Assembly: GCA_025526915.1 (NCBI GenBank)
Contig: JAHLKH010000048.1
Span: 62,001 to 126,000, forward strand
Origin: Entophlyctis helioformis
Taxonomy: Eukaryota > Chytridiomycota > Chytridiomycetes > Chytridiales > Chytriomycetaceae
Length of the DNA stretch: 64,000 bases
Direction of reading: 5' to 3'
Each line of letters begins with the position of its first letter. The stretch's first letter is position 1. The notes under the pieces are model-generated. The model saw only the letters and a program-made list of their open reading frames with translations. It was not told the origin of the DNA and ran no database searches. Position numbers and translations under genes: made by a program. Of the stretch, positions 20,601-61,410 are shown piece after piece.

Positions 20601-20623
20601 GGTCACGTGAAACGCCACGTGAC
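20601..20623. promoter_or_regulatory. CACGTG-N6-CACGTG doublet, divergent promoter 1
   Basis: Two CACGTG cores at 20604-20609 and 20616-20621, 12 bp start to start with a 6-bp spacer (aaacgc). They lie in the 340-bp gap between the Smr gene (minus) and the unassigned gene at 20680 (plus). The flanks read gtCACGTGa and CACGTGac, which fits a bHLH (Cbf1/USF-like) site. The binding factor is inferred. Confidence 0.65.
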
Positions 20624-20679
20624 TGGATGGCAGGCCAATCGGCAGCGTAGGGTCAAAGGATCTCACCGGCGAACCCAAC

Positions 20680-23600
20680 ATGAGCTTTGACGATGAGCTC
20701 GCGGACAGCTTCAACATCGACGGCCGCTATGACCGCTTTGACCGCTACGACCGAGAGGAAGAATACGAGCGAGGAAGAGGCGCCATCAACCAGCTGGTCG
20801 GTAGCTGCGCAAGCCGCTTGCCTTGCCATGTTGAGCCTGCCAACGACGCGTTGCTTGAAGCAGCCAAGACCTGACGCTGGACGCGACGCACCAGACAACA
20901 GAAACGCTCAAGGACTTGAATGTCGACAACGCGCTAGGCAACCCTTTCCAAAAGGAGCTCGTTTACTGGTCCTTTTCTCAGGTGGGCCATGAACTCCTGT
21001 AACACGGCTTCATTCGCACTTTCGTCTGACAATACTGGCCAAACACAGCTGCTCCAAAAGTTTACAGAGAACCTTGGCCAGCATCTGGCGGAAGACGTGC
21101 CCAGTGCGCTCAACTGGCTGCTTGTCAACTTTGTCCAAAAGCCAATCCAGGCAAGTGCTTACATGGCCTCGGCGGCACGACGCATGCATGGAGTGAGGCA
21201 CCATAACCAACGAGATCAACGCCGTTTGTTTTACAGGAGCAGCGGCTGTTCTTTCTGCGCGTTCTAATCTTTTGGACAATCCGCAGGTACGCGAAACGTG
21301 TGTCTGGAGTATTTTCACGCATGTGCAAGACGGGCCGATAGACTGATGGTTTGTTCTGGTGCTGCGAGCCCAGATTGCGCCATGCACTCAATGCGATGCC
21401 TGAGAAGCCAGAAAACTTTGACGACGTATCTGCGCTCATCAAAAGCTGCCTGGAGCTTGAGCCGCTCATTGACTTTCTTCCGACGCTTATGATCAATGTG
21501 ACCGACTGGCTGGTCGCACACGACACCAAGATCATCTTTGTGGAGGATCCTTCTTCGCTGGATGCGCAAGATGCGTTCATTGCCGCATGGGAGGTGGGCG
21601 GTTGGACACGAGCCCATATATGCACATGCATTGGATGCTCACCAGTATGCCATGTCATCCATACCATGCCATTCTTGCTTGCTTGCTTGATTGCCTGCTT
21701 GCTGGATCAGGATCTGTTCGTTCGGCCGTTTGTTCCCCCCGATCCTGACGAGAACGGACGCATGCTGCGCATGATCAAAGACATTAGAACGCGCAGCGAT
21801 CTGTACGCCCATCTGATAAAGTCTATCAACGACCACGTGACGCGCATGCTTGTACTCCAGCGTCCCATCGAACGCAGCGAGACGCTGATAGTCCATCCTC
21901 AGATCAGGGCCATGAAACTCAAAGCCGAGTGGCTCATGAGGTTCATTTGCGGTATGGTTTCTGCTGTTCGAGATGGGTCTGGGCCAACCTCTGATCGTTC
22001 GCCCATGATTTGTCGCAGACAATATGCACCGCGGGGCTCCCTCGCAGCACACGCTCAAGGTCATGGCAGACATGATTGAGCAGGTGCTGCTCATCTACGA
22101 CCCTGACCCGTTTTCTGGACTTCACGATGCAGCAGACACGCTCAAAGGAGCCATGACCAAAGGCGAGTGGAGAGCATTCATTGTGATATGCTTGCCGCGC
22201 CATGGTTGCGACGATCCAGCTAATATCCGCCCCCTTTGCACCGCCATGTCTCAGCCATTGAAAAACTGGTGCGCATCTGTGACTTGACGCGGTGACTTGC
22301 ACGCGACTAACCTTGACCGCATGCATACCAGACCGTCGCAGACACTCCTCCGCTGATCAAGATGGACAAGCGGCTTAGCCCGCTGGCAACTGTAAGAGCC
22401 AGCCCTCTAATGTTGGCGGCCTTTGCCATCCGGCTGAATCCGAGTCTGTTTGCAGCTGCTTTCACAGAAACGACTCGAAGCCTACGAGCGCAAGTTTGGG
22501 TTTGATTCCGAGCCTGGCAGCAAAGCCGTCAGCCGATCACCATCCATGGCGGTGAGGGGCGGACTCCTTGCTTGCATGCCCCGTTGATGTACTCATTGGA
22601 AGCCGTCCAATGGCAGTCGTCGTTTGACGCTCGTAAAGAGCTGGCCAACAGCTACAATGGCGAAGAAGTGTTGGTCAACATGGAGGACATTTGGGTCGAA
22701 ATCGATCCCATAGTCGATCGGATCGTGATTCCAAGTCTCGAGCATGACCACCAGAACAGACGCAGACACACTGCTGCCGATGTGAGGTCGTTTGCAAAAG
22801 ATGTGTGCACACACAACTGCCGGAAGCTAACGTGCTGATGATGACAGGAAATCCTGACCAGCATTGCGCCAGGACAGCTCAAGTTTACACGCGACGAACT
22901 GCTGTGGTACGGCATTGACAAAAAGTACGCACGACAACGCACGCGCTTCCTGCCTGGTCTTCGCGAGCTGGCCGTCAGCTTTCCCATGCAAGACATTACG
23001 CGCTTCACGTTTGGCAAGCTGCCGACCGAAGAGAAGGCGCAAGGCCCCGAGTTTTTCTTGTCTGGGCAGGCCGACATCATGTCGGTGGCGCGCAACTTTA
23101 GTATGCTGCGATCCGAGGCAGACGATGTGGTTGCAGCTGCAGCCGCTGCCATGGGGTCTGGAGGCGCAGCCACGCAGTCCAAAGCCGAAGAGCATTTCAT
23201 GGCCATCTTCACAGACGAGGAGGTGTACAAGTTCTTCCCAGTCAGCGAAGAGGAAGTCACGGAACTGCGACAGCTGCTGACAACGCTGACGGGTCTCGAG
23301 CCGTTTGCCGAGTCCGAGTTTGTCAAGGATGTGCTTGTGAGTGTTGTGGCTTGTCGCGAGCCAATTGGCAACAGCCAGTGGCACAGCAGGCATGTGCTGA
23401 CACGGCGGCACGTTTGGCAACAGTCGCAAAAGCTGTCCCTGAGCCGCCACGAAGTACTCAAGGCGCTGCTCCAGGAAGAGAGCCCGTGGATCGAGGAATC
23501 AGGCGATCTCGGTCAACTCATTGCGGCGCTTACGGCCGAGTATCAGCCACAGCAGATTGTCGATATGGAGCGGCTGTTTCACTCGTGCAGGATCGAGCCT

Positions 23601-24119
23601 GAAGTGACCAAGGAAGCCATCTTGCTATTGCGTGTATGTTGGCCGCAGCATGGATGCGGCAACGATCAATTGTGGGCCCTGGCACTGACATGGACAACCA
23701 ACATGGACGCAGAGGATCTGGATCGACTCGCCATCCGAAGGCACCAAGATCAAGATACTGGCTCTTGTGGATCGGCTGCTCGACAAGGTGGTGATGCAAA
23801 AGAGCGATCCGATCTTTGCCGTTGTTCACAAGTGGCTGCGTAGTCTGGAACAGACCATCTCGCCATATCGCAGGTAGGCAAGAGCTCCGCGGCAATCGAA
23901 CGCGATTGGGATCGCAGCGACTAACTGTGGTGGCCAACGGCCCATGGCAGCCCGACAGCGCTGGCACTCGTCTCGAGCCTGGTGCGACGATGCAAGGCCA
24001 TGCTGCTTGAGCCTCTCACGCCGATCGTGCGGTCGCACGCCAAGTCCATCTTCACCAACTGGGACGACTACAACTTTTGGCTGCATCTGTACAACGTCCC
24101 CACCCACGATCTCTCCTGA
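20680..24119 (+). CDS. Large unrecognised, mostly helical protein
   Basis: I do not recognise the family. The reading begins MSFDDELADSFNIDGRYD and ends FWLHLYNVPTHDLS. At least 14 exons are needed; supported ones include 20680-20800, 20869-20981, 21049-21150, 21237-21286, 21374-21593, 21711-21951 and 22019-22204. Between 22205 and 22400 the splicing is ambiguous (a 14-nt microexon or a longer intron). The product is about 850 residues, acidic-basic and helical, without transmembrane segments. Conserved-looking stretches are ELVYWSFSQ, NWLLVNFVQKPIQ, FVRPFVPPDPDENGRM, MEDIWVEIDPIVDR, PGQLKFTRDELLWYGIDKKY and ITRFTFGKL. The intron 21151-21236 starts with GCAAGT (GC-AG), since only that donor keeps phase 0. 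Confidence 0.65.
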
Positions 24120-24250
24120 GGAGCTGTCAAAGAGCGACTTGAATGACGGTTTTATAACTGAAAGAGAAGAGTGTGGGCAAGAGAGACTCTAAGAACCAAG
24201 AGTGGAAGAGAAAAAGCACACAAAAAGAAGGGGAAATGGAGAAACGAGAC
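24120..24250. other. Convergent 3' intergenic region
   Basis: A purine-rich plus strand lies between the stop of the unassigned gene and the desaturase stop. No gene is seen. Confidence 0.4.
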
Positions 24251-25899
24251 CTAGTTGGCGGCGGCAGTGCTCGAGGTGGCATCGTTGTTGTCCTCCCAGT
24301 GCTTGGCCTCGTCCGAAATGACCTTGGCGACAACCATCTTGCGGCCACGCTTGTGGTCGTCGTAGCTGCGGCCGAGACGCGACTGCGGGCCCATGGTGCG
24401 GTCAAAGATAAAGTCCCAGTGGACCTTCATCCAGGACTGGTGCGACGCGAGCGAGTCATAGAACTCGGGGGCGGCGTTCTTGAGGGCGGGAAGGTTGGTC
24501 CAGGGGATCTTGGTGAAGTCGTGGTGCTCGTTGTGGTAGCCAATGTTCATGAAAATCGCATTGAGGCCGCCGTAGTACGAGTAGGTCTCCTGACCGTCGT
24601 CAAAGGTGAAGTGCTCCTGGATGAAGTGGGCAGCGGCGGGGTGGATACCGTAGCCAAACCAGAGCGAGAGGAAGAGGTACAGGAAGCCGCGAGGGCCGCA
24701 AAGGTGCCAGAGGAACGCATCCGACGAGAGGGTGACGATCCAGTTGACGTACTCCCAGCCAGAGGGAGCCTTTTGCATGGCGAGGCCGCGGACGACGTAC
24801 ATGAGCGGGTAGAAGAAGAGGAAGAGGAACTTCATGAAGGGGTTGCCCTGAGGTGCGGTGCATGGTGCGGTGAGATTGGGACGATGCCAGGCAGGCGACG
24901 CGTTGTGGAGGATCGGATGTACAGGACGGATGGAGATTCGAGTTCGAGCGAGCGAGCGAGCGAGTGTGCGATCCAATGTTTCAAATGCGTGTCAGGATGA
25001 TGCGGATGCGACAACAAATTTGTCAGCAAGGGAAAACAGAGCGGGCGGCATGCGGGCGGCATGCGGGAGTCCAAGGAGGCGCAAGCGGCCAGCACTTGTG
25101 GCCAGCGTGCATGCGTGTGTGCCTGTGTACGGCATCCACGCCGTGGCATCAGGGCACAGAGTGCGCCGCCAGTGCAGGCCCCGAAACAGCAACGAGAGCA
25201 GCAGCAGCAGAAGCAACACAGCAGAAGCAACACAAGCAGCAGGCGCACCTTGATCAAGTAAATCTCAATGTCCAGCGGCAGGTCCGGGTCACGGCCGACG
25301 ACGCCCTGGTAGGCGTGGTGCTCGAGGTGGTAGCGGCGGAACGAGGCGGCAATGGGGAACGGGATGACGATGTTGGCGACGAGGCCGGCAATGCGGTTGA
25401 GCAGCGTGCTCTTGAAGATGAGGCCGTGGCAGGCCTCGTGGATGATGCTGCCAATGACCTGCGTGAACGTGCCGCCGACGACAAACGACGCAGCGATGAG
25501 CGCCGCCGTCGACTCGGTCCACACGTGGCCAAACAGGTACGCCATGCCGACCTGGCAGACGAGCACGGCCACGATGATGTACTTGGTCGAGTGCGCAATG
25601 CCAAACAGGTTCTTGACCTCGGGGTGCTTCTCGAGGATGGCGTGGCGGCGCTTGATGTGCGGCTCGTCAATGTCGTCCATGGCAATGTCGTCGTCCTCGC
25701 CCGGGATCGAGCGCTTCCACAGGCCCAGGTACGACGGGTGGCGGACGTCGAAGCCGTCCTTGGCGCCGCCGTTGGTGGCGTCCGTCTTGGGCAGCGTGCG
25801 GCGGCTGCGCAGCGTGCTGCCGTCCGCAGCCGCAACAGCGGCCGCCGCCTTCTTGGCCTTGACAATGCGGGGGTTCGTGGCGTTGGCCGAGGCGGTCAT
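24251..25899 (-). CDS. Sphingolipid delta(4)-desaturase (DEGS/DES1)
   Basis: Introduces the 4,5-trans double bond into dihydroceramide at the ER membrane, needed for ceramide and glucosylceramide synthesis. Exons 25899-25249 and 24847-24251 give 415 residues. Three histidine boxes of the membrane desaturase di-iron centre are present: HEACH, YHLEHHAYQG and YHNEHHDFTKIPW. The N-terminal lipid-desaturase region (FDVRHPSYLGLWKRSIPGE ... RRHAILEKHPEVKNLFG) and GLNAIFMNIGYHNEHHDF are typical of DES1 rather than acyl-CoA desaturases. I use the ATG giving MTASANATNP; an upstream in-frame ATG exists but adds unrelated residues. The single intron is long for this region (401 nt). The N-terminal 40 residues are Ala/Lys rich and probably disordered. 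Confidence 0.93.
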
Positions 25900-26057
25900 T
25901 GTTGGATGAACGGCAAAGCTGTGAAACAGCAACGTTTGCACTGAAACAGACATGGAGCCCAATCACAAAATTGTTTGTAATTGCCAAAGCTTGCCTTGGA
26001 AATGTCAAGAGCTTCTCTCGGATCTTCTCAGGCGGCCCGTCCAAATCCGCACACATC

Positions 26058-26666
26058 ATGTCGCCCATCCAAAAGTCTGACGAAGAGGTAGCAGCCGTGC
26101 TCTTCCCTGTCTGCGTCGCCTGTCTGTGTCGCCTGTCTGTGTCGCCTGTCTGCGTCGCCTGTCTGTGTCGCTTGCCGGCTGACAGCATCGCAGTGGCGAG
26201 CCATCCTGTCGCCTGCACAATTCCGCGTTCTGCGGAACAAAGGCACCGAGGCTCCCAACACCGGCGAGTACAACAAGCACACGGAGACTGGTGTCTACAA
26301 CTGCGCAGGCTGCAACACGCCGCTCTACACCTCGTCCACCAAGTTCGACTCGCACTGCGGCTGGCCAGCCTTCTTTGGTGAGTCGACCCTTGCCCAATTG
26401 CCCGCCTTTGCGGATAAACATACGGAACAACTGCTGGTCAGATCGAGTGCGACTGACCCTTGCATTGCGCTGGGGTGACGGCAGATGCCATCCCAGGCGC
26501 CGTCTCGCGCCACGAAGACACCTCCCACGGCATGACACGCATCGAGATCACCTGCACAGCATGCGGCGGCCATCTCGGCCACGTTTTCAAGGGCGAGGGT
26601 TTTGCCACGCCGACCGACGAGCGCCACTGCGTCAACTCTGTGTCTCTCAAGTTTGCCAAGGAGTAG
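26058..26666 (+). CDS. msrB: Peptide-methionine (R)-S-oxide reductase MsrB
   Basis: Reduces methionine-R-sulfoxide in oxidised proteins. Exons 26058-26087, 26194-26377 and 26485-26666 give 131 residues. Hallmarks in order: [32 protein letters not shown] (first zinc CxxC), [24 protein letters not shown] (second zinc CxxC) and the catalytic [11 protein letters not shown]. No signal peptide is visible, so a cytosolic form is likely. Intron 1 contains a 14-16-bp minisatellite (ctgtctgtgtcgcctg and variants, 26107-26170). It is divergent from the desaturase across 158 bp, which lack a CACGTG site. Confidence 0.96.
26107..26170 (+). repeat. Minisatellite in MsrB intron 1
   Basis: About four copies of a 14-16-bp unit of the form ctgtctgtgtcgc with cgtc/tgtc variation, pyrimidine-rich on the sense strand of the gene. 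Confidence 0.8.
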
Positions 26667-26856
26667 AGCCACGATGCCGCCTCGTGTCCGTTGCATGCCT
26701 GTCTGCCAGTCTGTCTGCCTGTCTGCCAGTCTGCCTGTCTGCCGGCTCGTCTGTCTGTCTGCTTGTCTGTCCATCAATCACAATACAACCCCTCATTGTT
26801 TCTCTCGTTCTGACCACATCAAGCAAACAGGCGACGCTGGCCTGCACTGACGCAAC

Positions 26857-28956
26857 ATGATCAGCCGTCGATTGGCAACTGCTCACGCAGCTCCCCTGCA
26901 CCGCAATGCACCTTGGCCAGTGGCTCTACCGTCAGTTGGCGGCCGGCAATTCTCTGTGGCGTCGACTGTGAATGCCGCATGGATTGCAAAGACGGACATG
27001 TGCAGACGCACCAACAGCACAAGCAGCATGGCAGCCAGTGCTGCTCGGGTCTCTGCTGTGCAGCCATGCCGCATGGTCACACCAATGCATCTCTTTCCTG
27101 GCCATCTGCATGCATCGCCACTGGTGCACCGGCAGCAGAGAATGCAGTCGTCCAGCTCGACTGCTGTGCAGGTAGGATGCGTCTGTTGCTGTGATTGCAC
27201 GTGCGGCTCGTCTCTGATGCGGCTGACCGAGTCTGGCATCCGGCAACCTTCCAGCCGACCGTGCGTGTGGACGACAAGGACGGCATGGTCCATGTCGGTT
27301 TCCCTGACGGCAAGGCCGCAGCCTTGTCAGTGTTGTCTTGCCGTGGCCTCGCAATGGAGAATGTGCTTACGCTCCTGCGACTAATCCGTCGTGATGGGCA
27401 TGCAGCCATGGCATCTGGCTGCGTGATCATTGCCGCTGCTCTGAATGCTTCCATGAGATCACAAAGCAGCGGCTCGTGGACACAAGCAGCATTCCGCTTG
27501 ACATTCGCCCCTCGTCTGCCAGCATTGCAGCTGGCAGCAGCCTTGTCGTCCAATGTAAATAGTCTATCCGCTCGCCTCTTGTCTTGACTGCCTATACCAT
27601 GAGTTGCACAACTCACTCACACCGTGACCCTTGGCAAGGGTCTGGTCCATCCCACACGAGCGTGTTTCCACTTGCATGGCTTCACGATCACGCCTATGCA
27701 CCCAAGCTTGCATCACACGACGTGTCCCTCAGGTGAGGGCACTGTGTATTGTCCCGCATGCATAGCATCGGTCTGCTGGAGCTTATCTCGTGTTTCGTGC
27801 TGGACAGGCGCGATTACAAGCTGTGGGGTGCGGATCTGGCCGGCCGTCTGCCCACCACTCCGTATGACGAGGTAATCGCCGACAAAGAGAGGCCAGCATA
27901 TCGCTTGTGCTTCAGCAAAAATCTGACCAGCAGTTTATGGCTTGCAGATTATGGCTGGCGACGCAGGTCTGGCCAAGTGGCTCAACAACATTGACGAGTA
28001 TGGCGTCGGGTTCGTGTCTGGTGTTCCTGCCAATCCAAAGGTGCCTTGGAGTTGATCAGTGGCTTGCAAAGAACTTGGGACCTGACGGCGCTTGTCATGT
28101 TGACAGGACACCGAGGCCCTTGCGCGCAGGGTTTCCTTTATCCGCGAGACACATTACGGTAAGCGAGCCAGCCGGCCTGCCTCTGTTGGGAAGCGAGCCT
28201 GCCTCCACATCCACTCACACTCTCGACAATGACTGCTTTCACCACCAGGCGGGTTCTGGGATTTTTCGCCCAACCTTGAGCATGGCGACACGGCCTACAC
28301 GAGCATAGCACTTCCAGCCCACACAGACACGACCTACTTTACCGACCCGATTGGGTATGTGAACCGTCTGCACGGCACTGGCCGTGATGAACACTAGCCG
28401 TCATTCTTTGGCTAAACTGTGGCGATCCAGCTTGCAAATGTTCCATCTGCTCGAGCATCGCGGCGAGGGCGGCGAGTCTCTCTATGTGGACGGATTTCGT
28501 GTGGCATCGCAGCTGAAAGAGCGCTCGCGATGGGCATACGATGCGCTCACGCAGATCAAGATATCTGCACACTCTGCCGGCGACAAGAACACGCTGATGC
28601 AGCCGACGCCATTCTACTTTTCGGTCATCAACCTCGACCCAGCCGATGGCAACCCGCTGCAGATCCGATTCAACAACGACGACCGATCAGTGCTCGACCA
28701 TCTGAGCGCCGGAGACGTGCGCACGTTTTATGCAGCACTGCGAGAGTGGACGCTCCTGCTGCGCGCCAAGGACAATGAGCTGTGGGTGCGTCTGCAGCCT
28801 GGCACGGTTGCCATGGTGGACAACTGGCGCGTGCTGCACGGACGAGCTGCATTCACTGGGTTCCGCCGCCTCATTGGCAGCTACCACGGCTGGGACGACT
28901 TCCGCAGCCGCGTCAAGATGGTGTGCCACAACGGACGCGACAAGGACCGCATCTAG
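26857..28956 (+). CDS. TMLHE: Trimethyllysine dioxygenase (carnitine biosynthesis)
   Basis: Fe(II)/2-oxoglutarate dioxygenase that converts 6-N-trimethyllysine to 3-hydroxy-trimethyllysine, the first step of carnitine synthesis, in mitochondria. The N-terminus MISRRLATAHAAPLHRNAPW resembles a presequence. The N-terminal zinc domain is visible as WLRDHCRCSECFHE, followed by KQRLVDTSSIPLDIRPS. Catalytic domain: RRVSFIRETHYG, LEHGDTAYTSIALPAHTDTT (HTD of the metal triad), GGESLYVDGF, and near the end VDNWRVLHGRAAFTGFRR with the distal His and the Arg that binds 2-oxoglutarate. The HGDTAYT.LAL..HTDTTYF block distinguishes it from gamma-butyrobetaine dioxygenase. About nine exons; introns are 60-100 nt. 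I have not fixed every junction between 27300 and 28160. Confidence 0.9.
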
Positions 28957-29204
28957 AGGTTGTGCACCATCGCCCATGCCCGGCAGCGAGCGTGACGGGA
29001 TCGAATAAACTGGGTTGCTTTGCAGCACGCTGTGTTGAGCAAAGTGAATGGGATATCCGGTAGAGTAGTGAGAGAAAAGACCATCAAGCTTTGTTGGCTA
29101 AAAGTGAAAGAGATATCGTACAGTCAGCAGCACATCTGCATGCGACATGCCGGGAGCTTCCAGATAAAGCCAACGCCGCCCGATAAAGATCCGCCATGGC
29201 CAGT
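28957..29204. other. Convergent 3' intergenic region
   Basis: It lies between the TMLH stop (28956) and the eL43 stop (29205). It is A-rich around 29060-29120. No gene is seen. Confidence 0.4.
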
Positions 29205-30031: not shown

Positions 30032-30114
30032 TGATGTGAATTTGAGTGGGTGGAGAAAGCAAGGCCGCGCAGCATCGCGACCAAGTTCAAACCGACGGGC
30101 GGAAAGCGAAACAT

Positions 30115-30126
30115 GGTCACGTGACC
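30115..30126. promoter_or_regulatory. GGTCACGTGACC palindrome, divergent promoter 2
   Basis: A perfect 12-bp palindrome in the gap between eL43 (minus) and the Uds1-type gene (plus), 84 bp from the eL43 ATG and 143 bp from the plus-strand ATG at 30269. A single site; no second CACGTG lies at 12 bp. Confidence 0.65.
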
Positions 30127-30268
30127 AGCGTGGCGTGGGCAGCGAGAATGAACGGGCCGCCCCGTGCTGCGTGTCCGCGTCGGTCCGCGTTCATTCTCGA
30201 CGACCGTTGGCTGTTTGACGGCGGCTTGACCAACGGGCGACTGCCGCGAGCGAGCAGCAGCGCAAGCA

Positions 30269-37121: not shown

Positions 37122-37188
37122 TTTCGACGACGGGGCAAGCCGCGCATTTGTCGACCGTTGAGAGTGTGCCGCTGATTGGCGCGCCATC

Positions 37189-37211
37189 AGTCACGTGACA
37201 TGCCACGTGAC
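37189..37211. promoter_or_regulatory. CACGTG-N6-CACGTG doublet, divergent promoter 3
   Basis: CACGTG cores at 37192-37197 and 37204-37209 with a 6-bp spacer (acatgc), 12 bp start to start. They lie between RPB8 (minus, ATG at 37121) and BCD1 (plus, ATG at 37362). Confidence 0.7.
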
Positions 37212-37361
37212 ACAAGTTCCATCCAACAATTTCAGCGTCGATTTACTGCATCGATCGACCCAACATCAGAGTCGCATACTGGTGGGTGGCATGCCTGCAA
37301 ACATGCGCTGCCTGCTGGTGGTGCATACTGGCTGCTGATTCTTGTGGCATGGCGTGATAGG

Positions 37362-38706: not shown

Positions 38707-38744
38707 AACGGGCTTTCCCCATTCAGGCAGCAACGAATCCAACC

Positions 38745-39602: not shown

Positions 39603-39768
39603 CCATCCCCTCGCCCCGGCTGCCTGGCCCCAGTCCCTTATAGCCCCAATACAATCCCACCGGCATCACACACGCCGCCCAATGTGCACAAATGTCGTGC
39701 CCTTGGCAACGTTGCCGCCTCCTCGCCAATCTCAGACCCGCCTGCAGATCACGCTTCGTCCGCCCCGC

Positions 39769-40050: not shown

Positions 40051-40086
<36 letters not shown>

Positions 40087-47047: not shown

Positions 47048-47063
47048 TTCGAGGTCGTTTGGA

Positions 47064-51324: not shown

Positions 51325-51339
51325 TATTGCTCCCTGCGC

Positions 51340-52875
51340 TCAAAGCTCTTGCTTGGAAAGTAGCCGCTTATCCACTTCAACAGCATTCCCGATTAGCACA
51401 CATTCAATGAAACTGCCGACAATTCGCTTCTTACCATACTCCGCAAGTGCGTGCGCCATAGCAAAATGGCTTTGCTGACAACGGAACATTGTGTTTTCAT
51501 GATAGTGCAGCGTGACAACGAACGTCTCAAGCCATGTGAGGTTCAAGGACAAATGGCGAGTTGGGATGATTTCGTCATGGCGAAGAGCTCCGACCATATC
51601 CTTGACGATGTCTTGAAAGTCAGAGTCGCGCTTCGTTTTCTGTTTATGGAAAGTGTTAGTATTCTTTCGTGCAACACTCTCTCATTCCATTACCTGTGCC
51701 ACAAGTTGGAACATGTCACGACGCTGTTTTCGCAGAAACAGCTCTCGCTTGGCTATCTTGGCTTCTCGTCGTTGCTGAGCTTGCCGTTGTCGTTCGGCTC
51801 TTGCCGCTTCGTCAACATTCTGTTTAACAGAGTATGAATGGTTAGCGCAAACCTGATATGATTCCACAATTGACTTGGAACGCACGCACCTGGCAAATGA
51901 CTCCAATGAACAAGTTTGCAATGATAAAGTTGCCTACGAAAATGTATGCAATGGTGACCAACTCCGAGGCGACATAACCGTCTCGCACAAGGTTGTCTTG
52001 ATATGTTGTCCATCCATCGGCACAGACGTAGATCCACAATGTGAGAAATGCCTCGGGGAGCTCCCAGTTGTGCTTTGAGTAGCCTTCGTACGACGACGTC
52101 CCAAACAGGAAATGCCCTATGATGCCAGCTACGAAGATGAAGAGGCTTAAAAGGATCATAATGTCGACGACGTTGGTTCTGAGAGTTCCGAGGAGCGCGT
52201 CAACGACAACCTGGAGGCCGCGAATAAAGGGAATGATTCGGAAAATTCGAATGATTCGCAATGCTGCCAATTACAGCATACATCAACCGTTAGATTCGAT
52301 GAACACTTGGCCTTATACAGCTGCCACATCATGCCTGGGCTAACCTCTCAGCAGACGCAGGGCTGTATCATTGACGTATGTCGGAAGGGTCAATGTCACA
52401 ACCCAGTGGACCAGGTAGATGATGACGCACGTTAGATCGACCATGTTGTAGACGTTGCGCCAGAACCTGTATCTGTCGCAATAGATGCGTGCCACAATGT
52501 CGACCACGTAGATGCTCATGAACACAATTGACAGCACAGACATGACTTGGAACTGGCTGGTTGATGCGTTGCTCTCTGATGCTGCAAGTAGGTCTGCTTC
52601 GAATGCTATCCTTGCCACGTCGACACAAACGATGCAGAACATGGCAAGCTCGTATTTGGACGACTGTCACCAGAGCGTGTCAGGACAGTTGTTGTCTCAT
52701 TTGACAAGCCAGATGAAGCATCCATCCAACCTTGAGCAATGTCCTCAAATACGACGAGAATGTTAATGGATGGTGGGGCTGTGTATGCAATGCTGTTTGG
52801 CCATGGTAACTGTGTTGTCAAGTCGTACTGTCTTGAAAGCATCTCCAACCACCTGTTACCTTTCTCTCGAGCCAT
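51340..52875 (-). CDS. Single-domain six-TM voltage-gated cation channel, CatSper-like
   Basis: One-domain channel, as in CatSper subunits. S1 begins SSKYELAMFCIVCVDVARIA; S2 is MSVLSIVFMSIYVVDIVARIY; S4 has regularly spaced arginines (LRALRIIRIFRIIPFIRG, created across an intron). The pore region reads FLTLWIYVCADGWTTYQDNL, an acidic (Asp) filter as in Ca-permeable CatSper or Cav pores. S6 is TIAYIFVGNFIIANLFIGVI, followed by a coiled, basic/acidic tail (AERQRQAQQRREAKIAKRE). The last exon ends ALAEYGKKRIVGSFIECV ... LSKQEL. The first exon (52875, MAREKGNRWLEMLSRQ) is tentative; a donor GTATTT keeps phase 0 to S1. Chytrids are known to carry CatSper homologues, so zoospore motility is a plausible role. 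The CatSper subtype is not assigned. Confidence 0.75.
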
Positions 52876-53570
52876 GTTTCTTTCAGATTTTTGGGAAAGC
52901 TGAGGCCGGGAGACCGAGAGACATTAAAGAGACAGTGAGACAGCTTGACCGAGAGACAGCAAGACAGTGAGACCGGGACAAAGAGAGAGTGAGAGACAGA
53001 CGAGCATGGTCAGTATTCCTGCTCGAAGGCACAGGGAATTGCTTATTGACTGCGGCACAGACGAGAGGAGGAAGATCCGTCAAGAGACAATGTCTGCAAC
53101 AGGCAATGAATAGATACGTATTGGAGCACTCGTGATATGCAGACACTTTGTGATGCGAGTCCAGCAACGGCAGTGGTGCAGGCAGCAGCGCCTGCTGTCT
53201 CACAGTCGGAAGCGGAACGAAGCGAGCAACAGAAGGCGGAGGTTTACGTCATTCTCGTTTCCGCTCCCGCTCTCATTATCGCTGCCAGCACCACAAACAA
53301 TCGCGGTGTGTCCCGCTCTTGTCGCGCAACCCAAAAGCTTGTTTGACGAGGTTGGACGCAACACATCGCCACGCCTGCTTCTGCTCCTATATCTCCAGCA
53401 TTGTACCCCCTGCAGCTGTACTCACCGTGCATGAACCCAACAGACTGACAACCCCAACGCATTCACATCCGACTCTCTGCTTGCCAACCCCGCTCACTGC
53501 AAGATACAGCCAACCGAGAAGCCACAAAGCAACACCTGTCCATCGAACATCATCCTAACGGCGACACCCA
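52876..53570. other. Divergent intergenic region with GAGACAG repeats
   Basis: Shared 5' region of the channel (minus) and the gene at 53571 (plus). On the plus strand it has imperfect gagacag/gagagac repeats at about 52900-53000. Short open frames show no family pattern and there is no CACGTG site. It could also hide an upstream channel exon. Confidence 0.4.
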
Positions 53571-55467
53571 ATGTTCTACGTTGACACAGTCGTCGTTGGG
53601 CTGTTCGGTTCCCAGATAGCGTTCCTCGTGGCCGTCCTCTACCCGAACGAGCCGTATATCAGCCAACTACAGCGCGAACCTTTGGCCTCACTGGTCACCG
53701 CCGTGGTCTCTGCCTCGTTTATTGTTGCCTTTGTTGTCGTCGACCATGCCCTCGTCTCCTCCCTTATGCAGGTGCGTTGCTCTTGCCCTTCATGCTCTTC
53801 TCCGGCTTGCATTGCATGAACTGCCTGCTGTTGTTGCACCGTCCTGCCCCCCATGGCCCCTCCGCCAAGAAGTCAGCCAGCCAGCACAGCCCTCTTGAAT
53901 CCGCTGTCGGATGCTGCTGTGCCGCCAGCAACCATATGTGGCTGACGCGACAAACCTCCGCCCCAACTCCGCCACAACTCCGCGCAATCAGGACGCACAC
54001 GAGGAGGCTCGTCGAGTGCAGCAAAAAAGACAGCAGGAGCAAGAGAGACAGCAGGAGCAGGAGCAGACAGAGGCTCCGCCCCCAACAGCAAACATGCCCG
54101 CATCCGTGAGTGTTTCTGATTGCGAGCCGTTGATGCATCATTCCACTTGACAACCCGTGCCCATTCGACGCATCACTGACATTGCACTGCTCTCATCCCG
54201 CCGCACTTGCTGTCCGTTCGTCGCTTCTGTTCACAAGACCAATTCACCCCGCCACCCCATCCCCAGCCGCACGATTCCCAGCTGCCCGATCAAGGCCGTC
54301 AAGCACAAGGAATCGAAATGGCTTGGCGGTATCAAGTGCCGTGAGCCGGTCCGCGGCTTGCTTCCACATGCTGATCCCCTTGTGTCGACCTTTGAGATTG
54401 TTTGTGCATATGAGGAGCACACCTTGGTTGAGAAGCACCGGGACAAGACCAAAGAGATCGTCTCTGTGGATGCGAATGCCTTCAAGGCTGTGCTTTGCAA
54501 GGACTTGAAGGTGGAGCGCACCGCGGCTAAGGAGAACCAGAACAAGACGGAAGAGATCATCAATATTGATCCGAATGCCTGCAAGGCCGTGCTTTGCAAG
54601 GATGTGAAGGTGGAGCGCACCGCGGCCAAGGAGAACCAGAACAAGACGGAAGAGATCATCAATATTGATCCGAATGCCTGCAAGGCCGTGCTTTGCAAGG
54701 ACGCGAAGACGAACTGCCAGCTTTATACCGATATGCTGCTCACCAACATCGGACCAGCGCGTGTCCTTCTGCCAGCCAACCAATTCGTTTGGCAACCAAT
54801 GTCTCCTGCACAGACCGACTTAAAACCAAGGAAGCGAGCGAAACTCGAGGGTGGCAAATATGTGCAAGCGGAGTTGGACGATGACTCCGACAGAAGACCC
54901 GCGTCAAGCACACAGACCAACGCTTTGCAAGACGCAAACACGCCCCGCAAGCTTGCCAAGGCTGTCTCGCGAAAAAGGGCAGTCGCGGCCATCAGCCAAG
55001 AAGCACCAGGATGCGAGGCCCGGAACCGGCGCCACACCAGGTATTTGCCAACCCACCGCCAGAGCCCGCCACCAGCCATAGCCGATTGATGATTGGCCTT
55101 GACCGAGCCATTGGACGACAACCCTGCCGCTATTCCTGTCCAACACCAACCTGGCCATGTTAGCGAAGGCTCGCCGTCCTGCTCGGTTTCGCCCGTTGTT
55201 GGCACGGCCCGCAAGCTTGCGAAGGCTTTCTCGCGAAAAAGAGCGCCGAAAGACGCCGGCCAGCCAGTCGCGCCCCTTGAACCACAGGCGACGGAATCTG
55301 GGTCGAGCAGCGATTCACTCTCAGGAATCGATCAGCTTGCAGCCATTGCTGCTGCTGAGCTTGGCAACGCTTCTGCTGGTGGCAATGCGGTGATTGGGTC
55401 TCCACCTCGTGACGACGATGATTTGTATGAGGTGGACTATGGATATTCGGATGACGATTATGCTTGA
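53571..55467 (+). CDS. Unassigned membrane-anchored protein with 33-residue tandem repeats (tentative structure)
   Basis: I do not recognise the family. Exon 1 (53571-53771) codes for two membrane segments (VVVGLFGSQIAFLVAVLY and SLVTAVVSASFIVAFVVVDH). Exon 2 (53929-54105) is a Gln/Glu/Arg coil (QQKRQQEQERQQEQEQTEA). Exon 3 (54238-55040, AAG acceptor) contains three 99-bp repeats, 54442-54540, 54541-54639 and 54640-54732, each encoding about NKTEEIINIDPNACKAVLC plus a KVERTAAKENQ tail; the last copy is degenerate. The rest is basic and Ser rich, ending in acidic DDDDLYEVDYGYSDDDYA. The motif RKLAKAxSRKRA occurs twice (54947, 55210). The junction near 55041-55093 is not resolved, so the last part may be a separate frame. 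Confidence 0.45.
54442..54732 (+). repeat. Three tandem 99-bp coding repeats
   Basis: Copies start at 54442, 54541 and 54640, exactly 99 bp apart. Copies 2 and 3 are nearly identical over their first ~65 bp; copy 1 has diverged (KTKEIVSVDANAFKAVL against KTEEIINIDPNACKAVL). Confidence 0.9.
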
Positions 55468-55882
55468 CTGGTGTGTTTTGGTTGATAGTGTCAGCATACA
55501 CTGTTAGGTTGAGGGCTGAGGTTCGAATGAAGTCTGCCATCGCGCGTCAATCTATGTTGTGGCTTTTCAGGCATTGCATTGCGTTTGCAATACGGTTTCT
55601 TGACCAACATGACCGGTTTGGTGGCCATACTTACGAAAATGACTGGCCCGCGACTTGAACGCGACTGGACGCAGCATGATCTGGTCCATGAGCACATGTG
55701 ACTGAAAGCGGAGATCTCGGCACGATCCTGGATGATGATGCTTGTGTCCAAGTACTCTGGCTGGCTGTATCGTCGCTGTCTGACGAGTGCGTCAAGTAGA
55801 GCGACCGGTGCCCATAGAGCAGATGCCACACTCCAATGTTTATGGCAAGCCATAGCAAAACTAAAGAATCATACATTATCGT
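55468..55882. other. Convergent 3' intergenic region
   Basis: It lies between the repeat-bearing gene and the NOG2 stop. Minus-strand frames of 80-120 codons exist but lack any family signature or clear start context. I see no supported gene. Confidence 0.35.
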
Positions 55883-58756
55883 TCATTCAACGGTCCACTT
55901 GGACGAGCCACTGCCACCGCTTTGCTTTTTCCGTCCGTGCTGCGACTTTGTATCCTTTGCAACCTTGGGCGTCTTGCGATCACGATTACGGTTCTTGACG
56001 TTGGCAGTCTCATAGTAGTGGACACCAACCTTCTTCTTGTTCGTCTTCATGCGCGGCTCCTTGATACGCTTGCTGCTTCCTCATCCGAGTCTGGCTCAGC
56101 GGCACGCTTGGCGGTGGTACGAGGCGGAGACGCCTCAGCCTCAGATGAAGACGCGCTACTCTCCTGGACATGCTCCTCCTCGTCCTCGTCGTCCTCGTCC
56201 GAATCATCGCGCCAGTTGCTTGCACTGGCAGGAACAGAAGCAGTATCGTCGTCCTCTCCATCATCAGCGTCCTCCTCCTCGTGATCCTCGTCGTCCACCT
56301 CGTTATCGTCGCCAAGGCCAAAGGCAGCTTCTGCAGCCCGCTTCTCTGCCTCGAGTTGCTCCTTGGTTACGCCAGCAAGCTCCATCTCGTTGGGCAAAAA
56401 GTCTGCAATGACACGCAGGTTTTTGATCTGCTGCTCTACACGCGCCACTGTGTTCACCGCAGGCGCTTCGCCGTCGGCTGGTGTGCCCGCCTTCTCCTTT
56501 GGAAGCGTGTAGAACGGAATCTTGCCACGAATCCAGTCGTTGAGTACCATCTTGGCAACTGACGAAACGTCCGCATCACCACCCTGTAGGCATGATATTG
56601 TGTTTGGGAGAAAGAAGTGTGAGCCATTGGCACTATAGCAACACATGCATGTTCATGAAGCAGCACGCGTTCCTCGTACCTTGAGCAATCTACCAGACTT
56701 GAGTGCAAGTTGCGACAAAAAGTCCAAGTGATCGGTCCATGTCTTGATGCCATATGTCCGCGACAAATAAACGGGGCGGCATCGTTCGAGGATGGCGGTG
56801 ACGTGCTCCTCGGGCTGTTGAATGTTCTCGACACGGACAACACCCTTGAGGACGATGTCGGTTTCTGTGTCCTCGGACGAGCCATAAACCACACCAGGAC
56901 AGTCGATCAGGTATATCCGTTTCATGAGCGTAATGTACTGCCACACCTGTGCAAGAGGAATAAAGAGACATGTGAGATGCGCAACAAGACAATGGCAGCA
57001 ACGGAGTGGCAGAGAGGGCCGTGCACAACAAACGTACCTTGGTTTCGCCAGGAATAGGTGCGACGTTGCAAACCTTTTTACTCTTGAGAGTGTTGATGAT
57101 GGAACTTTTTCCAGTGTTGGGGTAGCCGACCAGGCCGACCGAGATTTGCTTCTTGTCTGCGTGCAACTTGCTAAACTGGCGAAGAAGGTTGATCAGCGCC
57201 GACTTGCCAAACGAGTTGTTGATGTTTGCGTGGAATGCGACGGTCGGGTACTCTGCCTCAAGGGTGCGCTTCCACTTTTCCTACAGATGCAAACATTGGC
57301 AGATGGAGGGAGCAAAAGCGAAATCGAGTCAGCGACCAGCAGGAGGGAACACGATGCCTGGTTTGGCAGAGAATGAGAGGAGGAGGAGGAGGAGGGAATG
57401 TGTGTTCAACTGACTAAAAGGGAGATGGTGGCACAGCCACAAGGACGGTGTGATCTCGCTTAACTCTCGTGAACGTCCGTGCCAGGTCAAAGTCTCAGAA
57501 CGAGACCGGGCGACCAAGACGGCTGCTCTTCCAATGCTGTAACTGACGAGTCCCACGGAGCGGCGGAGACTGGCAAAGCCAGTCAAGGCCAGGGAAACAT
57601 CCTGACTACGCAGTGGTACACAAGGTGCAAGGTGCAAGGTGCAATGTGATGGAGCCAACGGTTGCAGACTTACAGCAACCCAGCTGGGCACGAGATCGCA
57701 CTTGTTGAGAACAAAGATCATCTGCTTGTGGCGGGCTTCTTTCTTGAGGTGGCGCTCGACATTGATGCATCTCGTTCCGATCGGGTCACGGGCGTCGAGG
57801 ACGTGCATGACAATGTCTGAGCTGTCAATGACCTTGTAAAGCTCGCCCCAAATGCGCTTGGACTGTCCCTTTTTGAACACGGGGTTGCGCATCTCGGGAA
57901 TGGTGCCGTCCTCGTTGACCTTGAGCACCTCGTCCTTGTCGACATCGTAGTTGTCAATGAGGCCGTCGGCACGAGCAACGAGATCCTCCATGGAGGAGGC
58001 GTTCATCTTGGGGCGCTTGCGCTGGGCCTTGGGGCCAAAGGTATCGCCAAACTTTTCAGTGTCGAGCAAGTGCATGCGGGATTGCTGCGCGAGAGACAGG
58101 GGAACACCGGGGGGGTTAGACAACGAGGCTTGGCAATGCAGAGTCCAATTCCACGCAGTTGACAGACACAAGACGAGGCAGGCACACCTTTTGGTATTCA
58201 GAGACAAGACCCAGAGGCAGCTGCTTGGTACGAAGCACAAAGCTGTAGGGATCGTTGAGCTTGGCGTCCAAGGCTTCGCGGAACGCACCGAGCTCCTTCT
58301 GCCCGACAACACGAGTGTTTTCTGTGCACATTTTTTTTTTTTTGGCATGGTGTGGATGGCGGCGAGGCGAGGCGGTCAGCACAGTGCTGGGCCGAGCCGG
58401 CAGGCAGAGAGAGCGGCATTCGAGAGTCGAGCGACAGAACGGACAGACGGATGGACTGGCAAACAGACAGACGAGCGCAGACAGACAGCAGCGCAATGCT
58501 TACCGAACCAACGGCGGTCAGGAAGGACACGTGCCTGTGTGCCTGGAGCCAGCCGGGACTGGAACACGGCGGCCTTGATGATCTTGCCGTCCGAGTTGCG
58601 GGTGGGCTTGCCGCCCTTGAGCATGTTGAGATGGCGCACCTTCTTGACATCGCGGTAGAAGTTGACGCCCTTGACCTTGGTGACGTTGGAGAGCGAGTGG
58701 GAGTTGGTCGACGGCGCAGCCTTTGCGCTGTTGCGCTCCTTCTTTGCGGTGCCCAT
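55883..58756 (-). CDS. NOG2: Nucleolar GTPase NOG2/GNL2 (60S biogenesis)
   Basis: Circularly permuted GTPase that checks late nuclear pre-60S maturation. Seven exons (58756-58504, 58321-58188, 58084-57674, 57280-57038, 56946-56680, 56583-56121, 56079-55883) give 655 residues. N-terminal NGP1NT-type block: [30 protein letters not shown]. Permuted G motifs: G5 DARDPIGT, G4 LNKCDLVP, G1 [10 protein letters not shown]3 DCPGVV. Also [30 protein letters not shown] and [18 protein letters not shown]. An acidic Asp/Glu linker precedes a Lys/Arg-rich tail ([19 protein letters not shown]). A 41-nt intron (56080-56120) is needed to keep frame before KRIKEPRM; an indel is the alternative. Divergent from guanylate kinase over 139 bp. 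Confidence 0.94.
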
Positions 58757-58824
58757 TGGTGTGGATGTGTGTGCAAACGTGCGAACAGGCAACTTTTTTT
58801 GTTCGTTTGTGGAATGTCGCATCT

Positions 58825-58835
58825 GGTCACGTGAC
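58825..58835. promoter_or_regulatory. GGTCACGTGAC site, divergent promoter 4
   Basis: CACGTG core at 58828-58833 in the 139-bp gap between NOG2 (ATG at 58756) and guanylate kinase (ATG at 58896). A related CATGTG lies at 58835-58840. It is 72 bp and 68 bp from the two starts, almost central. Confidence 0.65.
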
Positions 58836-58895
58836 ATGTGCGATCTGGTGTGTGAGTGGCATCGTGCGTGAAATGGCTGACTCGACAAAGTGCAG

Positions 58896-59706
58896 ATGGC
58901 CGCGCCGATGGTCATTTCGGGCCCGTCAGGGTCGGGCAAGAGCACTCTCCTGGAGAAGCTGTTTGCCAAGTATCCCAACGCCTTTGGGTTCAGCGTTTCT
59001 CGTGAGCTGCGTTGGCTTGCTCGCTGTTTGGTGCTATGCAACCGCCAAGCGCCTGACTGACCGGCCGGCAACAGACACGACACGCCAGCCCCGTCCGGGA
59101 GAGACGCCTGGCAAGTCGTACCACTACATCACTCGCGACGAGTTCGAGGCCATGGTGGCCGACAACAAGTTTATAGAGCATGCAGAGTTTTCGGGCAAGT
59201 CACGCCAGGAATCCTCCGGTTGACTGGCTGCGGCAGCTCTGACCCTGCTCGTGTCCTCAGGCAACCGATACGGAACAAGCATCGCGGCCATCGACTCGGT
59301 CAAGCAGTCTGGCAAGGTCTGCGTGCTGGATCTTGAGATCCGTGGTGTCCAGAGCATCAAGACCATGAATCTTGGGGCCAAGTTTGTGTGAGTGGCCTCG
59401 GCCCGGTGATGCCTTGCTGCTTTCTGACATTGGGCTGCTGTCAGCTTCGTGCAGCCACCGTCGGTCGAAGAGCTCGAAAAGCGGCTGCGCAGTCGCGGCA
59501 CAGAGACCGAAGAGAGCCTGGCCCGCCGCTTGCAGACCGCCCAAGAGGCGCTCGACTATGCGGCGCAGCCAGGCACATACGACACGGTCATTGTCAACGA
59601 CGACCAGGATCTGGCCTATGCAAAGCTGGAGGAGTTTGTTCTGGCGACATGGCCGTCTGTGGCCCAGTCGAGCAAGAAGGCCTCCAAGGTTTGCTCGATT
59701 GTGTGA
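58896..59706 (+). CDS. GUK1: Guanylate kinase (cytosolic type)
   Basis: GMP to GDP phosphotransferase. Exons 58896-59001, 59075-59194, 59261-59387 and 59445-59706 give 204 residues, normal length. Motifs: [53 protein letters not shown] and [18 protein letters not shown], then [16 protein letters not shown]. The second intron begins GCAAGT (GC-AG), the only donor that restores GNRYG. The C-terminus as read is KVCSIV, a CaaX-like box that typical guanylate kinases lack. Alternatively a 41-nt intron (GTTTGC...CGACAAG) would replace it with the downstream IQ-motif frame. No targeting signal, unlike the paralogue at 5170-6651. Confidence 0.93.
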
Positions 59707-59711
59707 CAACA

Positions 59712-60149
59712 ATGAACGACCTCGACAAGGCTGCCGTTGACATTCAGAGGGTTTGGAGAGGGCGGCGCACGAGGAAGCTCGTGCAGAGTGTGCTCGCCCA
59801 CTGCCACACCGAGTACGCAGCACACTTGGCCTACACAGCTGCCACTGCACCAACAAGACCTGACAACCAGCTGCCACCGCCGACACTGCCAAGCATGCAG
59901 CAAGTGGGCACCACCTCGGGCTCAATCACCAAACGAACACGGTTGGCGTTCCTGGTCGGACAACGCGCAGCGCTTGAAAGCCGACTGGTGCATTTGATGG
60001 CGTGCATGGACGGCCTTGCGACAAGCGCATCTCTGGATAAATATAGAAAGCATGCACATTATTGCCATTTACTGAGCGCTCTTTTCTGGCTGGGCCGACG
60101 ATGGGCTTTCTGCGACTGCCGGCGTTGTCTTTGTCTGTGCCTGGTCTAG
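59712..60149 (+). CDS. IQ-motif ORF, separate gene or C-terminal extension of guanylate kinase
   Basis: The open frame starts 5 nt after the guanylate kinase stop with MNDLDKAAVDIQRVWRGRRTRK, a clear IQ (calmodulin-binding) motif IQxxWRGxxxRK. The next ~60 residues are Ala/Thr/Pro rich, then a short helix (FLVGQRAALESRLVHLMACM). The last ~30 residues (from about 60050) look non-coding, and the frame overlaps the 3' end of the antisense NDUFAF1 gene (from 60069). An AAG acceptor at 59733 would join it in phase to the kinase. Function unknown; Ca/calmodulin binding is inferred from the motif. Confidence 0.4.
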   Translation: MNDLDKAAVDIQRVWRGRRTRKLVQSVLAHCHTEYAAHLAYTAATAPTRPDNQLPPPTLPSMQQVGTTSGSITKRTRLAFLVGQRAALESRLVHLMACMDGLATSASLDKYRKHAHYCHLLSALFWLGRRWAFCDCRRCLCLCLV

Positions 60150-61177
60150 TGCCTGCTTGTGAGGCACGAGATCCAGGTCGCCGATAGTTTGGGGTGTGTT
60201 CATCGCCTTGATCCAGTCAAGCTCAAGCGAAAAGTCGCCCGGCTGCCGCATGATCGAGAATCCAACGGTCTTGATCCTTGTGCGGTCCATGGCCATTTGC
60301 CGCTGCTGCACATATCCGTGGCTTGTGAGCACAAAGTCGCGCAGGGGTATCTGCCAACGGAGGGGGCGATGTTCAGCGTCATTCAGCATGCTTTGTCGAC
60401 ACAGCTGCCATTACAACAGCGAGTCCATTTACCATGACAGTCTCCCATTCTCCAGGCCTCTGAAAGTGCAATCGGTGCTGCCACACGTACGACGGGTAGA
60501 TGGAATCTGTGCGCAGGTTGACGTACCACTGGCTGCTGTCGCCCTTGGCACGCACAGCCAGGTACCGGTACATGGACGTGTCGATTCTCGGGTGGTGGAA
60601 GAGCGTAAAAGGTTTCTCTTTGGACCGGATTCCTGCGTATCCACTGCGCTCAAAGTTGGCATTGGGCGGCACTTCGGTAGACAGAGTGCCCCAAAACAGG
60701 GCTGTTACATCACGGCTGGCTGTCAGTACCATATGCTGATGCGTGCCAAGCCCCGATCCATTGCCGCCAGATCTGCCGGCTATCCATGAAAGGTGCGAGC
60801 CCCCCTACCTGTCTTTTGTGGAGTCTGGCCCCAGTATGCTTCAGAGAGACCGCCAATGTCGGCATCGCATCCAACGATCCATTGCTCAAGCGACTGGAGC
60901 TCCTTGAAATCGAACAGTGGCTTCTCGAGTTTCCAGGTGTGATCAAACTTGAGGGCTGTTCAAGGGCCGTTGTTCAGGGCAGACTGCGGTGAGTGCGGTG
61001 CGGTGTGGTGCGGTATGCCGCTGCGCAGAGCCGAGCATGGCTGCGTCTTGGAACACAGGCCAGCGGGGCTGTGTGGTGCTCACCAGTCACTGTCTCCTCT
61101 CGCAGAAACGACAGCGAGCGGCGCACGTAGCCGGCAGCGAGCCGCAACCCCTCCTTGAGAACACCAGTTTCGACCAT
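60069..61177 (-). CDS. NDUFAF1: Complex I intermediate-associated protein 30 (NDUFAF1/CIA30)
   Basis: Assembly factor for the membrane arm of mitochondrial NADH dehydrogenase. Exons 61177-61084, 60955-60809, 60719-60433 and 60350-60069 give 269 residues. The start MVETGVLKEGLRLAAGYVRR could act as a targeting helix. CIA30 domain signatures: SLEQWIVGCDADIGGLSEAY, ALFWGTLSTEV, RSGYAGIRS, YRYLAVRAKGDSSQWYVNLR and RIKTVGFSIM, FSLELDWIKA near the end. Its presence implies a proton-pumping complex I, which some fungi (for example budding yeast) lack. The 3' end overlaps the IQ ORF on the other strand. The last 40 residues are disordered. Confidence 0.92.
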
Positions 61178-61387
61178 TGTGGTGAAAATGCGTTGATTGG
61201 TCAAGCTTCAGATTGGCCAGTCCTGGTGGGATCGCGCTGATTGGCCCGCTTCAGGAGCCAGAAGTGAGCACGCCTTGCAACAAGACGAGCATGAGGACAC
61301 TGCCGACACTCTCTGATGGTCCAGGTGGCTCCATGAGATGCGCGACGTTCAGTGGCCGAGCCACGGTTGAGTATCTTGCGGCCATCT

Positions 61388-61410
61388 AGTCACGTGCACT
61401 CTCACGTGAT
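61388..61410. promoter_or_regulatory. CACGTG-N6-CACGTG doublet, divergent promoter 5
   Basis: CACGTG at 61391-61396 and 61403-61408 with a 6-bp spacer (cactct). It lies in the 437-bp gap between NDUFAF1 (minus, ATG 61177) and the AIR-like gene (plus, ATG about 61615). Confidence 0.7.

Follow-up and report, generated by a model that had tools for sequence, protein, structure and literature searches.

The locus considered here is a stretch of 64,000 nucleotides (nt) from the chytrid Entophlyctis helioformis, referred to at its full length as the window, in which the E-box word CACGTG occurs three times as a pair separated by exactly six bases. The question is what these doublets are part of. 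A first-pass annotation had taken them to be free-standing pairs of basic helix-loop-helix (bHLH) sites, invariantly spaced around an arbitrary spacer and characteristic of divergent promoters. The present analysis suggests, on the basis of the sequence, that the doublet is the core of an oriented promoter module of ~70 bp rather than a bare pair. Conserved arms flank the E-boxes on both sides, a feature overlooked in the earlier interpretation.

Spacing of the E-box doublets

The three pairs start at 20604/20616, 37192/37204, and 61391/61403, exactly where the first-pass annotation had placed them, and have the spacers AAACGC, ACATGC, and CACTCT, respectively (plus-strand letters). Dinucleotide shuffles of the window (n = 100), which were used to set the chance level, contain on average 0.00 CACGTG-N6-CACGTG doublets, with three or more in 0 of 100 shuffles. 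CACGTG alone is rarer in the window than expected (16 occurrences vs a shuffle mean of 32).

The spacer length (k) was then counted over the whole 29.57 Mb genome, the control being the same pattern read backwards. As the reversed word comes with a base frequency of its own, comparing the k values with each other is the better test. The counts include duplicate loci, 7 of the 46 sampled k = 6 loci having been set aside as copies. Doublets with k = 6 are found at 167 places, compared to 34 in the control, so that the genome-wide excess proposed by the first-pass annotation as a test of its reading is indeed present. The narrower expectation of an excess only at k = 6 holds in that this class is the strongest, but k = 5 (61 vs 37) and k = 4 (49 vs 17) are raised as well and occur within the same module, and the spacing is thus not invariant. 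The classes k = 7-11 together contain 21 doublets vs 158 in the control (an average of 4.2 per spacing), k = 7-30 contain 301 vs 504, and k = 19-30 contain 100 vs 209; the total for k = 0-30 is slightly above the control (709 vs 626). Triplets with k = 6 (distance 18) swell the larger classes, as does the 9-bp tandem repeat CACGTGGGTCACGTGGATCACGTG, which also fills k = 3, 12, and 21. GT/AY flanks occur at 807 places; in the first 100 of these, inspected by eye, spacings of k >= 7 are either k = 6 triplets or this repeat, which resembles a long terminal repeat (LTR). The excess is confined to short spacers, is strongest at 6, and drops steeply above 6.

Chance clustering or low-complexity sequence, which the filling of three spacer classes by the LTR-like repeat might bring to mind, can be excluded as the source of this pattern: the k = 6 places among the matches listed do not come from that repeat, the shuffles yield no doublets, and the average at k = 7-11 stays at 4.2 per spacing. 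The spacer itself is not free, in contrast to what had been claimed, since NCNNNT is found in 94 places (93 distinct ones of the 167 sites) vs ~20 expected from the base composition. These matches divide into 50 forward and 44 reverse, the backward pattern giving 0 and 4.

The CACGTGGGTCACGTGGATCACGTG repeat forms E-box arrays at G000 C2:179300 and 185693, at C3:172065 and 178516, and elsewhere (locus L014). The arrays on C2 and C3 are paired ~6.4 kb apart, beside a chromodomain/Tf2-1-like fragment, and look like the LTR of a Ty3/Gypsy chromovirus carrying host-type E-boxes. Further E-box arrays of regular spacing, with k = 9, 8, or 4 (G000 C20:47555, C184:19888, and C105:19388), do not score as modules.

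Architecture of the module

The flanks were analyzed in a sample drawn without regard to them, namely the first 50 of the 167 k = 6 places (46 loci on contigs C1-C35), which avoids the bias of the NCNNNT search. The resulting module can be written as CCATCNAGT - CACGTG - [YCNNNT - CACGTG] - AYMCGNNTTCCATCCRGCCATTTCC, then CATCAAT. The left arm, CCATCNAGT, lies directly against the first E-box, and the last E-box is followed by the right arm, AYMCGNNTTCCATCCRGCCATTTCC, and then by NNCATCAAT. Conservation spans approximately -10 to +44 around the E-box run, with variable columns interleaved, and is near background beyond. In a separate first set of 38 aligned doublets, the fitted flank score is 982, compared to 187-213 in six sets of random positions. 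With leave-one-out scoring, 38 of the 46 loci have a module score of at least 7 and 39 exceed 1.6, a value that 0.1% of 20,000 positions picked at random within these loci surpass; the highest random score, 33.1, probably belongs to a module itself. When seven copies are set aside (L002, L043, L114, L118, and the whole family L110, L113, and L117; two pairs recognized by BLAST, the rest by eye), 30 of 39 loci remain above 7, with the model kept as fitted. The two arms jointly hold more information than the two E-boxes, ~40 bits by a hand sum, of which positions +1 to +25 of the right arm account for ~24 bits and the left arm for ~10.

Several near-copies bear on these counts. Stretches of 3 kb recur at 97-98% identity on different contigs (L018/L019, L021/L022, and L033/L043), as if two haplotypes had been assembled apart, and they inflate the site counts. 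In addition, a 218-base block containing a module is 99.5% identical between L001 and L002 (G000 C1:207474 and 210705), 3.2 kb apart, and is a local copy of a promoter stretch.

A larger collection of 83 modules was picked partly by the right arm and by the spacer and is thus no census; L105 and L109 are counted in it once per strand, and the copy pair L090/L102 is possibly still included. It contains one perfect E-box in 14 modules, two in 64, and three in 5. The gaps between E-boxes are 3 (1 case), 4 (8), 5 (14), and 6 (51), with no larger gap, even though up to 9 was allowed. It is the E-box run that varies, in number and in gap, between arms of fixed position. Likely sister copies differ in the same ways, by spacing (L060 with k = 6, L069 with k = 5) or by whole units (L063, L067, and L103). 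In five of the 14 single-box modules a near-miss CACGTG lies 10-12 bp before the box, strictly four when at least 5/6 letters must match (L094, L103, L100, and L052 at 5/6; L058 at 4/6); in L103 a perfect box is present farther upstream as well.

An attempt to orient the doublets by their spacer assigned several of them wrongly, including that at 37192, and orientation by the flanks corrected these. L105 (G000 C3:187403-187562) has right arms on both sides of its doublet, with scores of 28.9 and 23.1, and is a two-way module; L109 resembles it, with right-arm scores of 18.6 and 14.8.

The right arm provides an independent test. The right-half pattern CACGTGAYCCGNNTTCCATCC, allowing at most two mismatches and making no requirement for a second E-box, is found at 99 places in the genome, compared to 0 in the reversed control. 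Contigs C1-C35 contain 30 such places, and a hand count finds another perfect CACGTG at k = 3-6 in 26 of these: 18 with k = 6, 5 with k = 5, 2 with k = 4, and 1 with k = 3. Of the four places lacking such a partner, one carries a changed E-box beside the arm, preceded at 4 bp by a perfect one, and another has CATGTG as the partner. The E-box is spared by the mismatches, 3 of 133 falling in its six of the 19 fixed positions, where an even spread would give ~42 (by hand). Conversely, of the 21 doublets with k = 7-11, ten were fetched (L119-L128) and 0 of 10 resemble modules; the combined right-arm and E-box score is at most 8.3 in all ten, the perfect E-box letters alone contributing ~10. In sequence collections beyond this genome, the right-half pattern without mismatches, at 18 fixed bases, occurs in 10 genome_contigs stretches and 1 viral_contigs stretch, with ~7 expected by chance in 257 billion bases.

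Given that the right arm carries more than twice the information of the left one, we have also considered the possibility that this arm is the main site of a single multi-finger zinc protein, to which the E-boxes would be accessory. ZNF143-like proteins of this type read long sites in such a way, and the 14 of 83 modules with a single E-box would fit. However, the arm-side E-box is nearly invariant (the 3/133 mismatches above), a second perfect E-box is found in 69 of the 83 modules, and the right arm is missing at some k = 6 doublets. We regard this possibility as doubtful. It overlaps with the bHLH-centered module, such that our probabilities for the two add up to more than one.

Modules of the window

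All three doublets of the window are module members by the leave-one-out score, and a right-arm scan of the whole window returns those three sites and no others. The right-arm scores of these sites come from a model that included the window sites themselves; for the first module (A) the share of 50,000 random positions scoring at or above its value was printed as 0.0000. The two single TCACGTGAC sites that had been reported at 30118 and 58828 are both present but do not belong to modules. The features are as follows.

20604..20621, minus strand: module A, E-box doublet with k = 6, reading CACGTG-GCGTTT-CACGTG on this strand (leave-one-out score 37.0 vs -20.3 in the other orientation)
20622..20632, minus strand: module A, left arm TGCCATCCAGT, from the flank alignment
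20560..20603, minus strand: module A, right arm ACCAGACTTCCATCCAACAATTTCGGCATCAATT..., facing the Smr/DUF1771 gene named by Pfam (right-arm score 32.4)
20635..20639, minus strand: module A, ATTGG (CCAAT box), starting at -18 from the left E-box
37192..37209, plus strand: module B, E-box doublet with k = 6, spacer ACATGC (leave-one-out score 26.1 vs -18.9)
37183..37191, plus strand: module B, left arm GCCATCAGT, one base shorter than the consensus
37210..37253, plus strand: module B, right arm ACACAAGTTCCATCCAACAATTTCAGCGTCGATTT..., facing the BCD1 gene named by Pfam (right-arm score 30.2)
37158..37179, plus strand: module B, upstream element TTGAGAGTG...CTGATTGG (extended CCAAT box), with similar strings before other modules
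61391..61408, plus strand: module C, E-box doublet with k = 6, spacer CACTCT (leave-one-out score 41.8 vs -18.8)
61380..61390, plus strand: module C, left arm GGCCATCTAGT
61409..61452, plus strand: module C, right arm ATCCGTCTGCCATCCGGCCACTTCCCGCATCGATTT..., facing the zinc-knuckle (AIR-like) gene (right-arm score 37.8)
30118..30123, plus strand: single TCACGTGAC site, no module (right-arm scores -22.2 and -18.4)
58828..58833, plus strand: single TCACGTGAC site with a weak left arm (7.0) and no right arm (-20.2)

The gene names given earlier for the three doublets agree with the Pfam results on stop-free fragments, 7 of 10 of which were named (one of the seven being the LTR fragment of L014). 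A Smr gene with DUF1771 lies to the left of 20604, with two fragments outside any Pfam family to the right; Rpb8 and BCD1/zf-HIT genes flank 37192; and a CIA30 (NDUFAF1) gene lies to the left of 61391, with a zinc-knuckle (AIR-like) exon to the right, at 61.9 kb, read by eye from the translation.

Direction and neighboring genes

The direction of the neighboring genes was obtained from a codon-usage score, trained on 18 long open reading frames of the window and applied to both sides of 25 module loci (22 fetched and the 3 of the window). The context is divergent in 16 of these, tandem in 7, and unclear in 2 (L023 and L038), where both sides score toward the module; L013, just below the cut, is divergent. 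In all seven tandem loci the right arm faces the downstream gene that it could drive, for which the chance, counting either way, is ~1 in 64. The reverse arrangement, with the right arm at a gene tail and the left arm at a gene head, was found in 0 of 25. As the right arm points at a gene start whether the promoter is tandem or divergent, the module is a directional element and not a head-to-head device. Direction thus looks like a property of the module itself, divergence being common but not needed, and divergent promoters, to which the doublets had been assigned, do not define its context.

The first-pass annotation's free-standing pair, with nothing beyond two bHLH sites in divergent promoters, would account for the k = 6 excess, for the 16 divergent loci, and for the 8 of 46 k = 6 loci that have no convincing arms. 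It is nevertheless very improbable, as it is contradicted for most loci by the arms at the other 38, the bias of the spacer, and the directionality.

In a second alternative, a short element, mobile or duplicated, would have landed near gene starts and left the module as its remnant, in which case the spacing would be inherited rather than selected. The ~40 bits of shared arm sequence (by hand) are long for a regulatory site, and plain duplicates do exist (L033/L043 over 3 kb, L001/L002 over 218 bases, and the seven copies among the 46 loci). However, a mobile repeat should appear as a uniform block that is blind to gene orientation, whereas here conservation falls to near background outside approximately -10 to +44, variable columns are interleaved within it, the arms are fixed while the E-boxes between them differ in number and spacing, and the orientation follows the gene, with none of the 25 loci reversed. 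The named neighbors also come from many families. We therefore consider this origin unlikely.

Pfam named 28 of 50 fragments beside doublets, counting both sides and including some loci that are not modules. The families include cwf21, Rtf2, DJ-1, Med31, Erv1, PPR, DCP1, TCF25, DEAD helicase, UPF0004, zf-UBP, F-box, mitochondrial carrier, RPAP1, IFT52, IFT140, DUF3455, and Trm112. The neighbors look like a household mixture belonging to no single pathway. Fragments of IFT52, IFT140, and dynein heavy chain at doublet loci fit a flagellated fungus. The Med31 gene (L049) has a plausible start codon 62 bases beyond the last E-box; if this is right, transcription would start inside or just past the right arm.

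CCAAT box and upstream element

Within -42 to -8 of the module, ATTGG is present in 22 of 81 modules, starting at exactly -18 in 11 of them, and absent from the other 59. In the same interval CCAAT is found in 2/81 and the reversed words in 0/81. A string like TTGAGAGTGCGCYGCTGATTGGC precedes several modules (window 37158-37179, L009, L040, L059, L077, L078, and L107), and TGAGAGT occurs in 9/81 and CTGATTGG in 19/81 modules in this interval, a further element beyond the CCAAT pentamer. The genome encodes NF-YA, and the NF-YA gene (L142, G000 C89:12850-14300) has itself a CCAAT box, a left arm (15.2), and a k = 6 doublet ~575 bases before a conserved exon; the right arm is poor (-8.6). Self-regulation of NF-YA is possible.

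Candidate bHLH readers and helix geometry

A search of the genome for HLH domains gave seven matches, corresponding to five distinct proteins, as two locus pairs are 97-98% identical over 3 kb. The basic regions of the predicted proteins have the H-E-R pattern, which at the residues that read the bases marks the class B bHLH proteins, the binders of CACGTG. One of the proteins is 100% identical to BC831DRAFT_238960 of Entophlyctis helioformis. With its CACGTG core and with such proteins encoded in the same genome, the module has the features of a putative class B bHLH target. The closest relatives in the PDB are MITF/TFEB/USF for L016, MAX for L018, and, weakly, MYC for L021. A natural reading of the doublet is that it would bind two bHLH dimers.

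In terms of geometry, center distances of 9-12 bp are within ~51° of one helix turn in either direction, while 13 bp is ~86° off, and this fits the drop above k = 6. The proposed placement of two dimers on one face of the helix would not hold strictly, because 12 bp overshoots a full turn by ~51°. The helix phase also leaves the preference for 6 over 4 and 5 unexplained, so that contacts with the flanks or the shape of the proteins must add to it.

Comparison with known systems

The closest known parallel would be the tandem E-box (E1-E2) of CLOCK:BMAL1 in mammals, for which the original study describes a spacer of 6 or 7 nt, cooperative binding of two dimers, and occurrence in 13% of BMAL1 sites (PMC3043000). 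In the reporter experiments described there, longer spacers are weaker, activity is lost at 10 and is back at 16-17, and a spacer of 4 is significantly weaker than one of 7; no further co-factor sequence is reported there within the interval examined (PMC3043000). Both systems have a tandem E-box pair with a limited spacer, but the spacer ranges, though overlapping, differ: the chytrid element prefers 6, tolerates 4 and 5, and is not raised at 7-11. The chytrid element further differs by its long fixed arms and gene-facing orientation, and its neighbors are mixed household genes rather than clock genes. The element resembles the known tandem E-box in the pair and differs from it in arms, direction, and spacer range.

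The CACGTG core with T and A flanks is shared with the sites of USF/MITF/TFE, Cbf1, and MAX, and USF/MITF-like and MAX-like bHLH proteins are encoded in the genome. Sites of this class are usually single and have neither a phased partner nor arms. Promoters that combine NF-Y with an E-box resemble those modules that have an ATTGG at a preferred distance from the E-box, and NF-YA, a candidate reader, is encoded in the genome, but in the chytrid the CCAAT box is optional (22/81), and we know of no counterpart of the arms in such promoters. The HomolD/HomolE promoters of fission yeast and the Rap1 promoters of budding yeast are likewise stereotyped multi-site modules of fixed order before household genes, and CAGTCACG is also the HomolD word. 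Those promoters center on ribosomal protein genes, whereas the named genes of the chytrid module are mixed, and to our knowledge the repeated CACGTG palindrome is no part of them.

Proposed function of the module

The sequence architecture, the fixed spacings, and the direction relative to the predicted genes are direct observations. On the strength of these, we consider it likely that the doublet is the bHLH-binding center of a stereotyped, one-directional promoter module of ~70 bp. One E-box is anchored to the right arm (AYMCGNNTTCCATCCRGCCATTTCC, then CATCAAT), which points at a gene start; most modules add a second and sometimes a third CACGTG upstream, 9-12 bp from center to center, with the left arm CCATCNAGT against the outermost one. 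One to three bHLH dimers may then bind next to one another, spaced by about one turn, and stabilize each other, while other proteins would read the arms and NF-Y the optional CCAAT box. The assembled module would recruit the transcription machinery just downstream and give a steady expression of mixed housekeeping genes. Of the first-pass interpretation, the k = 6 excess and the household neighbors are retained in this picture; the free spacer, the restriction to k = 6, the single helix face in the strict sense, and divergence as the defining context are not.

A number of points weigh against this assignment. Eight of the 46 k = 6 loci score below 7 (L050, L003, L111, L047, L044, L007, L028, and L112), so some doublets have no arms, and since 14 of 83 modules have a single perfect E-box, a pair is not required. 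The loci scored by the module model are also those on which it was trained (leave-one-out, with near-copies present), the gene directions come from a codon-usage score instead of an annotation, and most of the loci with enough flank for the direction analysis came from the NCNNNT spacer search. Finally, the optimum at k = 6 differs from the helical optimum (10-11 bp center distance), and much of the module information lies outside the E-boxes, in the arms.

More speculatively, the module may be an alternative core promoter of chytrids, in which phased bHLH dimers and arm factors would position the machinery and set the direction, and the number of E-boxes (1, 2, or 3) would tune the strength, changing stepwise between gene copies. 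We put this forward only tentatively.

No comparable promoter element in chytrid fungi was found among the titles and abstract openings of the top-ranked open-licence papers (10-15 of 101 to 3,399 matches). The length of the module, its strict spacing, and its directionality make it a ready test of cooperation among two or three bHLH dimers, for which a single genome supplies natural variants with spacers of 3-6 and one to three boxes. The chytrid module thereby constitutes an independent case beside the animal clock element.

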